Assembly: GCA_027482195.1 (NCBI GenBank)
Contig: JAIXWE010000043.1
Span: forward strand, 1 to 36,530
Origin: Alphaproteobacteria bacterium
GTDB taxonomy: Bacteria; Pseudomonadota; Alphaproteobacteria; Micavibrionales; Micavibrionaceae
Length of the DNA: 36,530 nucleotides
Reading direction: 5' to 3'
Of this stretch, positions 3,853 through 34,737 are shown piece by piece. Every line of letters begins with the position of its first letter. Positions within the stretch are counted from its first letter, which is position 1. The position numbers and the translations under genes were made by a program. The notes under the pieces are model-generated. The model was given only the letters and a program-made list of their open reading frames with translations. It searched no databases and was not told the DNA's origin.

Positions 3853-4528
3853 TTCACTTCTTCTTGAGGCAGATGGATTGGAGCGCACCTATATTCAAGG
3901 TGATAATCAACTAACAATCTTTCGTAATTTGAATCTTAAATTAGAGCCAGGTGAAATTGTCGCCTTGGTTGGTTCAAGTGGTGCGGGTAAATCCACGCTT
4001 CTTCAAATGATCGGCCTTCTTGATACGCCAACACGTGGCAAAATTATGATGGCGGGAAAAGATGTCTCGCACTTGAATGACGAACAACGCACATTGCTAC
4101 GCCGTCAGATGTTGGGTTTTGTTTATCAATTTCATTATTTGCAACCTGAGTTCTCAGCGCTTGAGAATGTGATGTTGCCGATGATGATCAACCATGTTTC
4201 CAAATCACAGGCGCGTGAAAAAGCAACACAGCTTTTAACGGACATGAAACTTGGCGCGCGGCTTGATCATCGTCCTGCGCGTCTTTCTGGTGGTGAACAA
4301 CAACGTGTGGCGATTGCCCGCGCGCTTGCGAATGATCCCAAAATTCTTCTTGCGGATGAGCCAACCGGCAATCTTGATCCGAATACAGCTGATTCCGTTT
4401 TTGATATTCTTCTTAATCTTGCACGCGAAAAAAATGTGAGCGCAATCATCGCGACACATAATATGGATTTGGCACAACGTATGGACCGCATTTTAGAATT
4501 AAAGAACGGCCAACTTAAACCTTATTGA
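3845..4528 (+). CDS. lolD: Lipoprotein-releasing ABC transporter ATPase LolD
   Basis: The 227-residue ATPase that drives LolC-mediated lipoprotein release on the cytoplasmic face of the inner membrane. Walker A is GSSGAGKST, the ABC signature is LSGGEQQRVAIARAL, Walker B is ILLADEPTGNLD, and an H-loop histidine follows in ATHNMD. I chose ATG 3845, inside the last codons of lolC (8-base overlap), because it gives the normal N-terminus; the same frame is open further upstream to 3785, but that would run across the end of lolC. The overlap implies translational coupling with the permease. It is followed 11 bases later by dnaE. Confidence 0.95.
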   Translation: MSNSLLLEADGLERTYIQGDNQLTIFRNLNLKLEPGEIVALVGSSGAGKSTLLQMIGLLDTPTRGKIMMAGKDVSHLNDEQRTLLRRQMLGFVYQFHYLQPEFSALENVMLPMMINHVSKSQAREKATQLLTDMKLGARLDHRPARLSGGEQQRVAIARALANDPKILLADEPTGNLDPNTADSVFDILLNLAREKNVSAIIATHNMDLAQRMDRILELKNGQLKPY

Positions 4529-4539
4529 GATTTTCAATC

Positions 4540-7500
4540 ATGGCGCAAACGGCCCGCTTTGTTCATCTGCATGTCCATTCGGCCTATTCCTTGGCCGAAG
4601 GGGCCATTCGTCTTTCCAAACTTGGAAAATTATGCGCGGAAGACCACATGCCTGCGGTGGCCGTTACCGATACATCCAACCTTTTTGGTGCGATGGAGTT
4701 TTCCTCGGAATGCGTCAAGGCCGGTATTCAACCCATCATCGGTTGTCAAATTTTGATCGGTGATGACGAAGCGGAATTGGTTTTATTGTGCCAATCTGAA
4801 ACCGGATATCGCAATTTATGCCATCTTGTGAGTCAATCTTTTCTAACCTCTGACGGAACGCGCAAACCACGCATTTCATGGGATGAATTAGAGTCTTACA
4901 ACGCGGGACTTTTATGCTTAACCGGCGGGCTAAGGGGGCCGGTTTCAAAGGCCCTTCTTGGGCGTCGCCCCGATGAGGCGTTGAAAACAACACAACATCT
5001 TAAAAATATTTTTAGTGATCGGTTATATATTGAATTGCAACGCCATAACATGGCGGAGCAAGACATGATCGAGGAAGATTTAATTAAGCTTGCCTATGAT
5101 CTTGAGATTCCACTTGTTGCCACGAATGATTGTTATTTTCCAACAAAAGACTTTTATGATGCGCATGATGCACTTTTATGTATTGCCGACGGGCGTTATG
5201 TGACGGAACAAGATCGCCGTCGTGTAACGCGCGAGCATTATTTTAAATCGCAAGATGAAATGGTTGCACTGTTTTCTGATCTTCCTGAGGCTGTTGATAA
5301 TACAATTCAAATTGCGCAGCGTTGTCATTATTTCCTCGAAACGGTCAAGCCAATTTTGCCCCCGTTTGAATCTGAGTCAGGTTTAAAAGAACCTGAAGAA
5401 TTACGCTGGCAATCTCAAGAAGGTTTAAAGGAAAGATTGGAGAAATTTGTTTATCCGCTTTGTGATGCTGCGGATAAAGATTCCAAAACGAAAATCTATC
5501 AAGATCGTTTGGATTTTGAAATTAATACCATTATTAATATGGGTTTTGCTGGATATTTCTTGATCGTTTCTGATTTTATTAAGTGGGCCAAGGCGCAAAA
5601 TATTCCGGTGGGCCCTGGGCGCGGGTCGGGTGCGGGGTCATTGGTAGCGTGGGCTTTGCAAATTACGGATCTTGATCCCATTCAATTTAATTTGCTTTTT
5701 GAAAGATTTTTAAATCCTGATCGTGTGTCGATGCCCGATTTTGATATCGATTTTTGTCAAGATCGGCGTGATGACGTTATTCGTTATGTTCAAGATCGTT
5801 ACGGGCGCGATCGTGTTGCACAAATTATCACCTTTGGGCAATTAAAAGCACGCGCAGTTGTGCGTGATGTTGGTCGTGTTTTGCAAATGCCTTATGGGCA
5901 AGTTGATAAAATTGCGAAAATGATTCCCAACCATCCCGCCAATCCGATGACACTGGAAGAAGCGTTGGAAAAAGATTCCGAACTTCAAGCACAACGCAGT
6001 GATGAAACCATTAATCGCCTTTTGACAATTGCGCTTCAGCTTGAGGGTTTATATCGCCATGCGTCAACCCACGCGGCCGGAGTGGTTATTGCGGACAGAC
6101 CGCTGGAACAACTTGTTCCCGTTTATCGTGATCCATCATCCGATATGCCGGTGACGCAATTTAATATGAAGTATGTTGAGTTGGCGGGCTTGGTAAAGTT
6201 TGATTTTCTTGGCTTAAAAACACTGACCGTCATTCAAAAAGCGGTGGAGTTGATTGCCGATAAGGGCGAGAAAATTGATATTTTGAAAATCCCGCTTGAT
6301 GATACAAAAACATATGATTTGATTTCAGCGGGTCAGACGGTTGGAATTTTCCAGCTCGAAAGCTCTGGCATGCGCGATACACTGCGTAAAATGCAGCCCA
6401 ACCGTTTCGAAGATATTATCGCGCTTGTGGCGCTTTATCGCCCGGGGCCGATGGATAACATTCCGAAATATTGCAATGTCAAAGCCGGAAAAGAGGCCGC
6501 AGATTATCTTCACCCAAAACTGCAAGAGATGCTTCAAGAAACATACGGCATCATGGTCTATCAAGAACAGGTCATGCAAGCCGCCCAGATTTTAGCGGGC
6601 TATACATTGGGAAGTGCGGATTTATTACGTCGCGCCATGGGTAAAAAAATTAAATCTGAAATGGATGCACAGCGCGAAAATTTTGTAAAAGGTGCGGTTG
6701 CCAATTCAAACATCAAACCTGATCGTGCGGAAGTTATTTTTGAGCAGATTGAAAAATTTGCGGGTTACGGTTTTAACAAATCACACGCCGCCGCCTATGC
6801 CCTTATTGCTTATCAAACTGCGTGGCTTAAGGCCAATCATCCGGTTGAGTTCATGGCGGCGTCGATGACGCTTGATCTTGATAATACCGACAAATTGGCA
6901 CTTTTCCGTCAGGCTTTGGACAAGATGAATATTCCTCTTTTACTGCCCGACATTAATCACTCCAGCGTTTTATTTGCGGTCGAAGGGCACGCCATTCGGT
7001 ATGCATTGGCCGCGATCAAAGGTGTCGGGGCACAAGCAATGGATTATGTTGTCAAAGAGCGTCACAAAAACGGGCCTTACACATCACTTGATAATTTTTT
7101 GGGGCGACTTGAATCCCGTGTCATGAATAAAAAACAATTTGAAAGCCTGGCGGCGGCCGGAGCTTTTGATAAACTGCACGCAAATCGGGCGCAAATTTTT
7201 GAAGGGGCTGAGAAACTTATTCATTACGCCCAAGCGCGCGCAGAAGATCGCGCCAGCAATCAAAACAGCTTGTTCGGAAATGATATTATCCCTGAGCGTG
7301 ATGGGGCGGCGCAACTTCTTCCCACACTTCGTGAATGGTCGCCTTTGGAAAAATTATCACATGAATTTGATGCAATTGGTTTTTATCTGTCTGCACACCC
7401 GCTTGATACCAAAAAAGGTCAGCTTGAAAGACTCAATATCATTCCGATGGCACAGCTTGATCAGATCTTGGCGGATCGTTCAACCGCGCGGGTACAAATG

Positions 7501-7974
7501 GCGGGTGTCGTTATTCGCAGAGCTGAAAAAATTTCACAAAAAAGCGGTAATAAATATGCTTTTCTCACATTGTCTGATGCAACCGGAATTTTTGAGATTA
7601 CGTTATTCTCCGAAATTCTTGCGCGCACCCGCAAATATTTGGATGAAGGCAAATCACTATTGCTCACCGTCGATGTCGAAACACGGGAAGAGCAATTGCG
7701 CATGACGGCACAAGATATTCGCCCGTTAGACGAGGCGCTTGCGGATCGTATCCGTGAGGTGGTCATCAGCATTAAAAATGATCATGCGGTTCCGATTATT
7801 AAATCACGTCTTCATGATGAACAAAAAGACGGCACGGCTCATGTTTTCATTACCCTAACAACCGCCGCGGGAGAGAATGTGAAAATCAAACTTCCGGGTG
7901 TGTATCATTTCAGCCCCGAAACACGTAACGAGCTTTACCGCACGGAAGGTGTCGCGAGCGTGAGTGAGTTGTAA
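4540..7974 (+). CDS. dnaE: DNA polymerase III alpha subunit
   Basis: The replicative polymerase, 1144 residues. An N-terminal PHP domain begins HLHVHSAYSL; the next PHP motif reads TDTSNLFG, where active PHP domains have TDH, so this domain is probably not a working nuclease and proofreading would depend on DnaQ. The polymerase core has GPGRGSGAGSLV and PDFDIDF, and the three catalytic aspartates fall at residues 400, 402 and 555, almost the E. coli numbering. A tandem helix-hairpin-helix region and an OB fold (about residues 985-1060) follow. I prefer ATG 4540 (MAQTARF) to the TTG at 4525, which lies inside the lolD stop region. The gene follows lolD by 11 bases. Confidence 0.97.
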   Translation: MAQTARFVHLHVHSAYSLAEGAIRLSKLGKLCAEDHMPAVAVTDTSNLFGAMEFSSECVKAGIQPIIGCQILIGDDEAELVLLCQSETGYRNLCHLVSQSFLTSDGTRKPRISWDELESYNAGLLCLTGGLRGPVSKALLGRRPDEALKTTQHLKNIFSDRLYIELQRHNMAEQDMIEEDLIKLAYDLEIPLVATNDCYFPTKDFYDAHDALLCIADGRYVTEQDRRRVTREHYFKSQDEMVALFSDLPEAVDNTIQIAQRCHYFLETVKPILPPFESESGLKEPEELRWQSQEGLKERLEKFVYPLCDAADKDSKTKIYQDRLDFEINTIINMGFAGYFLIVSDFIKWAKAQNIPVGPGRGSGAGSLVAWALQITDLDPIQFNLLFERFLNPDRVSMPDFDIDFCQDRRDDVIRYVQDRYGRDRVAQIITFGQLKARAVVRDVGRVLQMPYGQVDKIAKMIPNHPANPMTLEEALEKDSELQAQRSDETINRLLTIALQLEGLYRHASTHAAGVVIADRPLEQLVPVYRDPSSDMPVTQFNMKYVELAGLVKFDFLGLKTLTVIQKAVELIADKGEKIDILKIPLDDTKTYDLISAGQTVGIFQLESSGMRDTLRKMQPNRFEDIIALVALYRPGPMDNIPKYCNVKAGKEAADYLHPKLQEMLQETYGIMVYQEQVMQAAQILAGYTLGSADLLRRAMGKKIKSEMDAQRENFVKGAVANSNIKPDRAEVIFEQIEKFAGYGFNKSHAAAYALIAYQTAWLKANHPVEFMAASMTLDLDNTDKLALFRQALDKMNIPLLLPDINHSSVLFAVEGHAIRYALAAIKGVGAQAMDYVVKERHKNGPYTSLDNFLGRLESRVMNKKQFESLAAAGAFDKLHANRAQIFEGAEKLIHYAQARAEDRASNQNSLFGNDIIPERDGAAQLLPTLREWSPLEKLSHEFDAIGFYLSAHPLDTKKGQLERLNIIPMAQLDQILADRSTARVQMAGVVIRRAEKISQKSGNKYAFLTLSDATGIFEITLFSEILARTRKYLDEGKSLLLTVDVETREEQLRMTAQDIRPLDEALADRIREVVISIKNDHAVPIIKSRLHDEQKDGTAHVFITLTTAAGENVKIKLPGVYHFSPETRNELYRTEGVASVSEL

Positions 7975-7976
7975 AG

Positions 7977-8516
7977 ATGAGCTTTTTTGAAATTTTTTAT
8001 TCTCTTTTTATTTTAGCTTTTATTTTTATAGCCATCATTATTTTTCGTCATGAAAAGATCTCCGGAATTTCCGCAACACCAACCTTGCGCCGGACACGCA
8101 CAGTGATGATTAACATGCTCAAAAGGCATGAACTACATCCGGTAAGAATTTATGATTTGGGCAGCGGCTGGGGTGGGCTTTTACAACGGCTCCATAAAGA
8201 ATTTCCAAACGCGGCAGTTAGAGGGTATGAAACATCTTTTTTCCCGTATTGGGTTTCAAAAATCTTCACATGCTTTTCAAAAAACATTCAGATTGAACAA
8301 AAAAACTTTTTTGAAATTGAGTTCACGCATAATGATGTGGTGATGTGTTATTTGTCCCCGCAACATATGGCGAAACTTAAAAGCAAGTGGGAGAGTGGCG
8401 CAGGGCATCCGGGGAGTGTCATTTCGGCTTCCTTCCCGATCAAGGGGTGGGAACCAATTATGGTAGAAAAGCGTGGCAAGCTGATTCCATCTTTTATTTA
8501 CCTCTATAAGTTATAG
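7977..8516 (+). CDS. Membrane-anchored SAM-dependent methyltransferase, FAM173-like
   Basis: A 179-residue protein with one N-terminal membrane helix (about residues 4-24) and a class I methyltransferase domain. The SAM-binding motif I is YDLGSGWGGL, followed by an acidic post-I position in GYETSFFPYW, then NDVVMCYLSPQHM and SFPIKGWEP. Helix plus these motifs in this order match the family that includes the mitochondrial lysine methyltransferases ATPSCKMT and ANTKMT (FAM173), and many uncharacterised bacterial members. The substrate is unknown; a membrane or ribosomal protein is possible but only a guess. It starts 2 bases after the dnaE stop, so it is cotranscribed with it, and ends 4 bases before the rpsB promoter. 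Confidence 0.8.
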   Translation: MSFFEIFYSLFILAFIFIAIIIFRHEKISGISATPTLRRTRTVMINMLKRHELHPVRIYDLGSGWGGLLQRLHKEFPNAAVRGYETSFFPYWVSKIFTCFSKNIQIEQKNFFEIEFTHNDVVMCYLSPQHMAKLKSKWESGAGHPGSVISASFPIKGWEPIMVEKRGKLIPSFIYLYKL

Positions 8517-8520
8517 TTTA

Positions 8521-8549
8521 TTTACATAGTCATAGACCTTTGTTAGAAT
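8521..8549 (+). promoter_or_regulatory. Sigma-70-type promoter of rpsB-tsf
   Basis: TTTACA (8521-8526), a 17-base spacer and TAGAAT (8544-8549): five of six matches in each box with ideal spacing. It lies just after the methyltransferase stop and would start transcription near 8556, giving a leader of about 187 bases. A short imperfect palindrome, TTAGAATATATCTAA (8543-8557), covers the -10 and might be chance in AT-rich DNA. Confidence 0.65.
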
Positions 8550-8642
8550 ATATCTAAATATACAAGGAAGGCTCGGCTAAGCTTTTCCCTTGCATTTTCG
8601 GGCTCAAACCCGTATAAACACATCAACTTTAATAAATTCACA

Positions 8643-8735
8643 TGCGGAAATCGGGCGGTTGCCTGCCTGAGACCCGGTGTTTAGCCCTCAAGCTAGATAC
8701 TATTCCGCAGAGGCTTTAACCGGATAGAAAAGGAG
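8643..8735 (+). promoter_or_regulatory. Structured rpsB 5' leader, candidate autoregulatory RNA
   Basis: By hand this folds into a three-way junction. P1 is 8643-8649 with 8703-8709 (TGCGGAA/TTCCGCA, 7 pairs). P2 is 8652-8656 with 8661-8665 around a GGTT loop. P3 is 8676-8685 with 8692-8701 (10 pairs, three of them G-U) around CCTCAA. The P2 loop GGTT, plus C8656, can pair with AACCG at 8718-8722, a pseudoknot ending just upstream of the Shine-Dalgarno AAAGGAG (about 8729-8735). Two smaller hairpins lie further upstream (8563-8592 and 8599-8612). The position suggests repression of rpsB-tsf by free S2 protein, as known for the E. coli rpsB leader, but this is inference. Confidence 0.5.
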
Positions 8736-8742
8736 ACAACCC

Positions 8743-9537
8743 ATGTCCATGCCTGAATTTTCAATGCGCCAATTGCTCGAAGCTGGTGTTCACTTTGGTC
8801 ACCACACACGCCGTTGGAACCCAAAAATGCGCCCATTTATTTTCGGTGTGCGTAACGGCGTTCACATTTTAGATTTGCAACAAACTGTGCCGATGTTGGA
8901 AACCGCGTTGCGCGCCGTGCGCGACATTGCGGCCAATGGCGGGCGTGTTTTGTTCGTGGGAACAAAGCGTCAAGCACAAGAAAAAATTGCCGAAAGCGCA
9001 AAGCGTTGTGGTCAATACTACGTCAATCATCGTTGGTTGGGTGGTATGTTGACCAACTGGAAAACCATGTCGACAACCATTGCGCGCTTGAAAGAGCTTG
9101 AAATTATTTTCGCAGGTGACCGCAAAGGTTACACGAAAAAAGAATTGTTGATGATGGCACGCGAGATGGAAAAATTGGAAAAATCCATCGGCGGAATTAA
9201 GGATATGGCTGGTCAACCTGACGCCATTTTCGTGATCGACACCAACAAAGAAGATCTCGCGATCAAAGAAGCCAACAAACTCGGCATTCCTGTGATTGCG
9301 ATTATCGACAGCAACTCAACACCCGAAGGTGTGACATACCCAATCCCTGGTAACGACGACGCACTGCGCGCGATTGAGATTTATTGCGATCTTTTCTCGT
9401 CTGCGGTTCTTGATGGTATCTCAGCGGAATTGTCACGTTCAGGCAAAGATTTAGGTGCGGCGGAAACCCTTACGGTGGAAATTCCACCTGCGGCAAACGA
9501 AGCATCGGATGATGTGAAATCTGCGGCAAACGCGTAA
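8743..9537 (+). CDS. rpsB: 30S ribosomal protein S2
   Basis: Ribosomal protein S2 of the small subunit, 264 residues, slightly longer than the E. coli protein because of an Ala/Glu-rich C-terminal tail. Family blocks are plain: [49 protein letters not shown], and [22 protein letters not shown] 8743 sits 7 bases after a strong AAGGAG, and a second ATG two codons later could not be excluded. It is the first gene after its own promoter and leader and is followed 30 bases later by tsf, the universal rpsB-tsf pair. Control probably acts on the leader RNA. Confidence 0.98.
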
Positions 9538-9567: not shown

Positions 9568-10497
9568 ATGGCTGATATAACTGCGGCAATGGTAAAAGAA
9601 CTGCGCGACAAAACTGGCGCAGGTATGATGGACGCGAAAGCGGCACTCGTTGAAAACAACGGCAGCATGGATGATGCGGTTGATTGGTTGCGCAAAAAAG
9701 GCTTGGCGAAGGCCGCGAAAAAATCTGGCCGTACTGCGGCGGAAGGTTTGATTGCTGTGTCAACGGATGCGTCGGGTAAAACCGCCACGGTGGTTGAGGT
9801 AAACTCCGAAACCGATTTCGTTGCACGTAACGAACAATTCCAAGCTTTCGTGCGCAAAGTTGCGGATGTTGCTCTTTCCACCCAAGACTCTGTTGAGCAC
9901 TTGGCGGACGCCGCGTTTGATGCCGGTAAATCTGTGAAAGAACATTTGACGGATCTCATCGCAACAATTGGCGAAAATATGAATCTCCGTCGTTCGAAAA
10001 AAATCGAAGTCTCAAACGGTGTCGTGGCAACTTATGTTCACTCGGCTGTGGCTCCGAATTTGGGTAAAATCGGCGTTGTCGTGGCGTTAGAGTCAACGGC
10101 TTCGGCTGATAAGCTTCAAGCGTTGGGCAAGCAATTGGCGATGCATATCGCAGCGGCGAACCCAGAATTTTTGGATGTGGCCTCGGTTGATCCAAAAGCT
10201 GTTGAGCGTGAGAAAAATGTTCAACGCGAAACAGCGCGCGCATCGGGTAAGCCTGATGACATCATTGAGAAAATGTTGGAAGGCCGCATGCGTAAATTCT
10301 ATGAGGAAGTTTGCCTTCTTGAGCAAGTGTTCATCATGGACGGCGAAACACGCATCAAAGATTTGTTGGCAAATGTTTCGAAAGAAGCGGGTGCACCCAT
10401 CACTCTCAAAACATTTGCACGCTTTGGCGTTGGTGACGGGATTGAGAAGGAGCAAACCGACTTCGCATCCGAAGTTGCGGCGGCTGTTAACGCTTAA
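9568..10497 (+). CDS. tsf: Elongation factor Ts
   Basis: The nucleotide exchange factor that reloads EF-Tu with GTP, 309 residues. The N-terminal UBA-like domain and EF-Tu contact region are clear: [20 protein letters not shown], then [16 protein letters not shown], the TDFVARN motif being the hallmark of the family. Two core subdomains follow, and the C-terminal module ends in a short acidic helix. The start has AAGGAA 8-13 bases upstream. It shares the rpsB transcript and is followed 10 bases later by a strong intrinsic terminator, so the rpsB-tsf unit ends here. Confidence 0.98.
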
Positions 10498-34265: not shown

Positions 34266-34343
34266 TATTTTCCTTGATGTTTCCAGAATGCGGGATTAAC
34301 GTCTCTCTCATTTCAAACTTTCTTTTCCTGCGTGAGGTGTAAC

Positions 34344-34679
34344 ATGGATTTACGACGTTTCTTTCGAAGGGATGCGCAAAACCCTCACGTGATTGATATT
34401 CCGCAAAGCACGGTTCAACCAATTCTTGATTTAATTGACCATATTCAAGAAGCTGATATTCGCGCCAAAATAAAAGAATTAAGTGAAATTATCGTCAGAG
34501 ATTATATTCTTAACCAAGAACGCAATCTTGATGAGCTTGCTTTATGCAGGCGGTTAGATGCGGTGGCAAAATTAATCCGCGATCTGGATACGGGAAGAGA
34601 TCCATGTGACACCGCCCATGATTTTAAAATGAGGGTGGTTGATACGCGCTTTCTTTTATTAAAATTGCGTATGCAATAG
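34344..34679 (+). CDS. Hypothetical protein, small helical
   Basis: I do not recognise this 111-residue protein. It has no signal peptide or membrane helix, looks mostly alpha-helical, and is rich in charged residues: a basic N-terminus ([10 protein letters not shown]), then [22 protein letters not shown] and a C-terminal helix ending [11 protein letters not shown] 34344 has GAGGTG 5-10 bases upstream, a good ribosome site; a GTG at 34332 adds four residues. It lies between pyrG and kdsA, an insertion into a gene pair that is close in many relatives. The ribosome site, codon pattern and lack of a rival frame make it a likely real gene. Confidence 0.65.
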
Positions 34680-34737
34680 TTTCTTCTATCATATTTGTGA
34701 TTTGCAAGTTGCACGCGCTTGCGCTAATTTGACGACC

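Follow-up and report, generated by a model that had tools for sequence, protein, structure and literature searches.

Genes and features at the rpsB-tsf locus

The window, that is, the whole stretch of 36,530 nucleotides that was analysed, carries the gene rpsB for ribosomal protein S2 at positions 8743..9537 (Pfam PF00318, E 9.4e-95; ATG at 8743). It is followed as the next gene on the same strand by tsf for elongation factor Ts at 9568..10497 (Pfam PF00889, E 3.1e-71). Both genes, and all leader features described below, are on the forward (+) strand. Genes with matches to the families of amino acid kinases and ribosome recycling factors lie 3' of tsf, and the DNA polymerase III alpha gene (dnaE) occupies 4525-7974. 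Between dnaE and rpsB there is an ORF of 179 amino acids (7977-8516), for which no Pfam match was found at E<=0.001; its segment DLGSGWGGLL shows what we take to be a resemblance to class I methyltransferases. In a single scan, the closest named relatives of the S2 protein were those of an unclassified alphaproteobacterial MAG (82% identity) and of Micavibrio MAGs (73%), which makes a relative of Micavibrio the probable source.

The gap upstream of rpsB extends from 8517 to 8742 (226 bases), and reading of the sequence places the Shine-Dalgarno AAGGAG of rpsB at 8730..8735. The initial annotation called it the largest gene-free gap; 34266-34701, flanked by long ORFs, exceeds it in length but contains an ORF of 115 amino acids. 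The initial annotation had also pointed to the amount of pairing in the leader, but its folding energy is not unusual: the minimum free energy (MFE) of 8600-8742 was -36.6, against -31.7 +/- 4.4 for shuffled sequences (z -1.12), and 28 of the 200 shuffles folded as well as the natural sequence. With this z value, folding energy was rejected as evidence for a leader structure. Because the folding energy by itself is ordinary, the case for the leader rests on conservation.

Comparison with the rpsB motif of Rfam

The whole window was compared with Rfam at the curated cut-offs, and no match was obtained. When 211 bases were searched at relaxed thresholds, 8639-8739 matched RF01815 (rpsB) along the entire length of the model with 28.2 bits (E 4.5e-4), which is below the gathering score of 40 bits, a search threshold and not a structural feature; the match covers 101 bases against 132 model positions. 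A match of 8723-8767 to the Rfam S4-Flavobacteria model reached 17 bits against a cut-off of 35.2 and was judged to be due to chance. A search of the window's own genome with a stricter filter gave no match to RF01815. In a sample of the order, 39 of the 114 genomes matched RF01815 at E<=0.001 and 15 of the 114 exceeded the cut-off; among 14 named control genomes, Caulobacter vibrioides alone was matched and none exceeded the cut-off. On these counts, the curated model is a poor one for this lineage. From its name and structure, we take RF01815 to be the Rfam entry of the rpsB motif described by Meyer et al. in 2009.

The account of the rpsB motif in that paper places it in most Alphaproteobacteria, describes a stem P1 and a junction of three stems in which P2 and P3 vary in length, together with a pseudoknot that joins J2/3 to a 3' extension after P1, and cites in vivo work on E. 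coli (Meyer et al. 2009, PMC2704228). As the motif was thus reported in most Alphaproteobacteria in 2009, an earlier remark that a described alphaproteobacterial counterpart is not known was wrong.

A covariance model built from the leaders of relatives

A covariance model from related genomes had been proposed in the initial annotation, and such a model was built. We gathered 63 leaders through the S2 protein; L093 was left out of a first alignment (A1), and L008, L018, L029, L065 and L092 were also left out of a second one (A2), which contains 57. The leaders L031-L060 were excluded from counts, because their selection had rested on how well they match RF01815. The model made from the 57 aligned leaders, termed R2, scores the window at 65.3 bits (E 1.2e-16), where the Rfam cut-off misses it; the window belongs to the R2 training set. 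In the window's own genome R2 found one strong place, the rpsB leader, with the next one at E 0.058, and all five leaders that had been kept out of R2 were found.

In the order, 87 of 108 genomes matched R2 at E<=0.01, a sample that overlaps the training set; in the phylum, 51 of 200 genomes matched, 43 of them within the class. Both tables list 31 genomes whose rpsB is known; inspection by eye located the R2 match just before rpsB in 27 of them, again with overlap with the training set. As for the other four, G029 has a weak match elsewhere and G023, G027 and G037 have none; rpsB of G027 starts at the contig end, and L010 (from G023) and L025 (from G037) are divergent versions of the leader. 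No leader motif was found in L093, the leader of G029; the RpsB homologue at this locus has 43% identity, and the genome is 73% complete with 5% contamination. Genomes negative with R2 are not proof of absence, because the whole-genome search missed the leader L160, to which R2 assigns 33.6 bits once supplied with its locus.

Stem P1 and its flanks

P1 is formed by 8643..8649 and 8703..8709, base for base as it had been drawn from the window by hand, and all 7 pairs are changed on both sides among the 57 leaders. Its 3' strand is followed by the conserved GAGG at 8710-8713, and its 5' strand is preceded by a conserved CACA. The CAC of the latter (8639..8641) prolongs P1 through the pairs C8639-G8712 and C8641-G8710 around an A-A mismatch, while A8642 is unpaired. 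These two pairs are present in 54 of 57 and 57 of 57 leaders of A2, respectively, and because both are nearly invariant they give no covariation evidence.

The P1 segments form standard pairs in 99.6% and 93.5% of the cells of A2. Taking P1, its flanks and the pseudoknot described below together, 96.5% of the cells are paired, against 33-47% when the partners are slid by 1-3 columns, and 127 cells show double changes, against 36.6 expected from shuffles.

The J2/3-tail pseudoknot

The sequence CCGGT at 8674..8678, in J2/3, is complementary to the ACCGG tail at 8719..8723, which ends 6 bases before AAGGAG. On A2, where the pseudoknot counts use the tail columns of L004, 95.4% of the cells of these pairs are paired; most of this pairing is plain sequence conservation, since shuffles already give 92.9%. 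Double changes were observed at three of the five pairs (5 cells, against 0.7 in shuffles), and with slid partners 4-55% of the cells are paired. The row of the window itself is one column off in A2, so that 2 of its 5 pseudoknot cells were scored as unpaired.

When the tail was left unaligned, all five positions pair in 58 of 60 leaders, against a mean of 51.9 and a maximum of 55 in 2000 shuffles in which the tails were redealt. The two exceptions are L015, which is gapped by the alignment, and L030, which has a C-T mismatch. In L010 and L025, both outside the 60, no tail of the searched form was found. Single relatives carry alternative pseudoknot letters, TTTCAGT/ACTGAAA in L025 and TAACAGT/ACTGTTA in L015. 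In L010, from genome G023, the letters CTTTGT/ACAAAG were noticed by eye; the tail there merges into the Shine-Dalgarno AAAGGAG, part of which the pseudoknot itself would cover.

The tail had originally been paired, as AACC, with a GGTT loop of P2. The four-base complementarity is there in the letters of the window, but it is not conserved: 27.9% of the cells pair, against 29.2% in shuffles. Among the 51 leaders whose P2 region is 10 bases or longer, the window being one of them, none allows this pairing with the loop formed in the MFE hairpin. The loop-tail duplex is weak, at -1.8 kcal/mol; J2/3 and the tail together reach -6.6 kcal/mol. The tail pairs with CCGGT of J2/3 at 8674-8678 and not with the P2 loop.

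The hairpins P2 and P3

In the MFE fold P2 is a hairpin of 8 bp at 8651-8658/8663-8670 with the loop TTGC (-11.0 kcal/mol). A hairpin had been placed correctly in this region, but in a different register (8652-8656/8661-8665) that gives 5 bp and -6.1 kcal/mol; the GG of the supposed GGTT loop is inside the stem of the 8-bp P2. The length of P2 is variable, and it is very short or absent in some relatives; both P2 and P3 differ too widely in sequence and length among leaders to be aligned. Compared with mononucleotide shuffles, the P2 regions are more stably folded, with a mean z of -3.0 for 50 of the 62 leaders, the other 12 being too short.

P3 was likewise drawn at the right place, with ten pairs (8676-8685/8692-8701). 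Its outer three pairs did not stand, as their GGT belongs to the pseudoknot; because the J2/3-tail pairing takes these three pairs, P3 was shortened to 7 bp at 8679-8685/8692-8698. The pairs are present in the window, and in relatives the P3 regions, too, are more stable than their mononucleotide shuffles (mean z -2.65 over 62 leaders).

With P1 and its covariation, a three-stem junction bearing P2 and P3, and a pseudoknot of five pairs, a motif extending from 8639 to 8723 lies directly before the rpsB ATG at 8743 on the same strand, which agrees with the position of the rpsB motif before rpsB or tsf. It shares with the motif of Meyer et al. 2009 the site before rpsB, P1, the junction, the variable P2 and P3, the five-pair pseudoknot and the occurrence in Alphaproteobacteria; it is unlike RF01815 in that it scores under the Rfam cut-off and its match is shorter than the model. 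We conclude that the leader is a member of the rpsB motif family, in which it is filed on its structural features rather than on its Rfam score.

The promoter of the leader

The promoter that the window has in common with its relatives is at 8589..8618, with CTTGCAT at 8589-8595, a spacer of 17 bases and TATAAA at 8613-8618. The pattern CTTG-N3-N16..18-TA was found upstream of the motif in 48 of 62 leaders, against 3.3 expected from shuffles. The initial annotation had chosen another promoter, TTTACA at 8521 with TAGAAT at 8544-8549. This site does match the consensus at 10 of 12 positions, but the one that recurs in relatives lies nearer, at 8589-8618; a consensus promoter scan gave 2 sites in the scanned stretch, with 0.9 expected.

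Judged from the position of the promoter, transcription would start near 8624-8627, about 15 bases before the motif, so that the transcript leader would consist of hardly anything beyond the motif. According to PMC9549626, the Rfam rpsB hit of Magnetospirillum gryphiswaldense begins 6-7 bases after the mapped transcription start.

Inspection by eye suggested that some relatives have one more hairpin, located after the promoter and before P1, for example CGGACGAATAACCGTCCG in L022. Possible hairpins of this kind before CACA were noted in L003, L008, L009, L020, L022, L023, L079, L088 and L091; none was seen by eye in the window.

Relation to the E. coli leader and the proposed control by S2

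According to the account in a 2024 review, PMC10931766, in E. coli S2 that is in excess over 30S subunits represses its own translation by binding the 5'UTR, S1 helps in this repression and Ts drops along with S2. The same account calls the details of the mechanism unclear, the ribosome-binding site being outside the operator (PMC10931766).

The E. coli leader, represented in Rfam by RF00127 (t44), resembles the window in its CACA-P1-GGAGG core, in its J2/3-tail pseudoknot (GGGGU with ACCCC) and in its site before rpsB, and it differs from the window in the letters of the pseudoknot. It matches R2 with 22.1 bits (E 3.4e-4) and RF01815 weakly, with 20.9 bits (E 0.024). The RF00127 match ends within the 3' strand of the pseudoknot, and Rfam lists RF00127 as an sRNA. 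RF00127 and RF01815 overlap in the E. coli leader (L094, 361-463), and Rfam shows no clan joining them.

The idea that a structured RNA at this place controls rpsB-tsf is supported by the fit to the rpsB motif and by the anatomy held in common with the S2-repressed E. coli leader. It is highly probable, in our judgement, that the leader is an rpsB motif which acts as the 5' leader of the rpsB-tsf mRNA and is controlled by S2 as in E. coli. For the leader of the window, the structure, its conservation, its position and the promoter common to relatives are demonstrated; S2 as the ligand and repression at the level of translation are carried over from E. coli by homology. Transcription would begin about 15 bases upstream of the motif, and the RNA would form P1 topped by the hairpins P2 and P3. 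CCGGU of J2/3 and the ACCGG after P1 would then make a compact pseudoknot a few bases 5' of the Shine-Dalgarno. S2 in excess of 30S subunits, helped by S1 in the case of E. coli, would bind and stabilise this fold, and the folded leader would stop 30S loading on the nearby start site and lower the translation of rpsB; the expression of tsf would fall too, by coupling. It is the closeness of the pseudoknot to the Shine-Dalgarno that may hinder 30S loading.

Three other readings were weighed. The motif might be mainly an element of expression or stability that lacks S2 sensing in the lineage of the window. Promoter and motif do lie close together in relatives, and neither functional tests in Alphaproteobacteria nor alphaproteobacterial S2-binding or reporter data are among the literature matches listed; but the pseudoknot and the P1 flanks, common to the S2-repressed E. 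coli leader, are more than stability requires, and we consider this reading improbable.

Marginally less credit still is due to a two-state switch, in which the GGU of J2/3 would have two alternative partners, one in a lengthened P3 and one in the tail, with S2 picking the pseudoknot state. The two states are indeed near in energy in the window, where a P3 of 10 bp has -10.5 kcal/mol, against -5.2 kcal/mol for the 7-bp P3 to which the -6.6 kcal/mol of the pseudoknot duplex is to be added, loop costs excluded. A conserved switch was nevertheless rejected, since a lengthened P3 with at least 2 of GGU paired was found in 35 of 61 leaders, no commoner than the 38.8 expected by chance. The structure as first drawn, with the P2 loop GGTT paired to the tail AACC and a P3 of 10 bp, can be set aside as very improbable: the letters of the window permit all its pairs and the 10-bp P3 alone is the stronger hairpin, but the loop-tail pairing is not conserved and its duplex is weak in the comparisons given above, and P2 favours the other register.

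Occurrence outside Alphaproteobacteria and meaning of the finding

At 6 of the 10 loci that are not alphaproteobacterial by their record titles, which also supply the phylum names below, R2 matches end at most 18 bases from the first base of the S2 match; the 25 alphaproteobacterial loci tested with R2 partly overlap the training set (e.g., L132 with L013, L134 with L071, L137 with L081 and L140 with L088). A pattern of CNCA, a stem of at least 6 bp and GNGG before rpsB, devised after the alphaproteobacterial leaders and L151-L160 had been viewed, was found in 18 of 30 Armatimonadota, 7 of 29 Chloroflexota and 58 of 63 Alphaproteobacteria, with 0.3 expected per set. When a stem of at least 5 bp and a Watson-Crick pseudoknot with an AC tail were demanded, the numbers were 7 of 30 for Armatimonadota (0.1 expected), one of the seven, L170, being doubtful by eye, 51 of 63 for Alphaproteobacteria and 0 of 29 for Chloroflexota (0.08 expected). 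Each phylum sample contains the genome that prompted it, and the Chloroflexota set is without L222, whose leader is cut off. The loci of the P1-core observation are L151-L154, L158-L160, L163-L192 and L193-L221.

Armatimonadota and Chloroflexota are absent from the list given for the rpsB motif in 2009 (PMC2704228). We lean towards regarding the rpsB leader as an ancient sensor of S2 that reaches well beyond the groups of 2009, with the CNCA-P1-GNGG core in Armatimonadota and Chloroflexota. The letters of its pseudoknot would have changed often (CCGGT, GGGGT, CGGGT, TGGGT, CTGGT, CAGGT), and the pseudoknot would have been gained or lost between phyla, Chloroflexota having P1 without this pseudoknot.

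The leader of the window is an ordinary and well-supported addition to an established family of ribosomal protein leaders; its hand-drawn structure has been corrected, and a model from relatives scores it well where the Rfam cut-off misses it. It brings a Micavibrio-like lineage under an already known mode of regulation of ribosomal proteins, and the age of S2 autoregulation would be seen in a new light if the P1 core is indeed more widespread.
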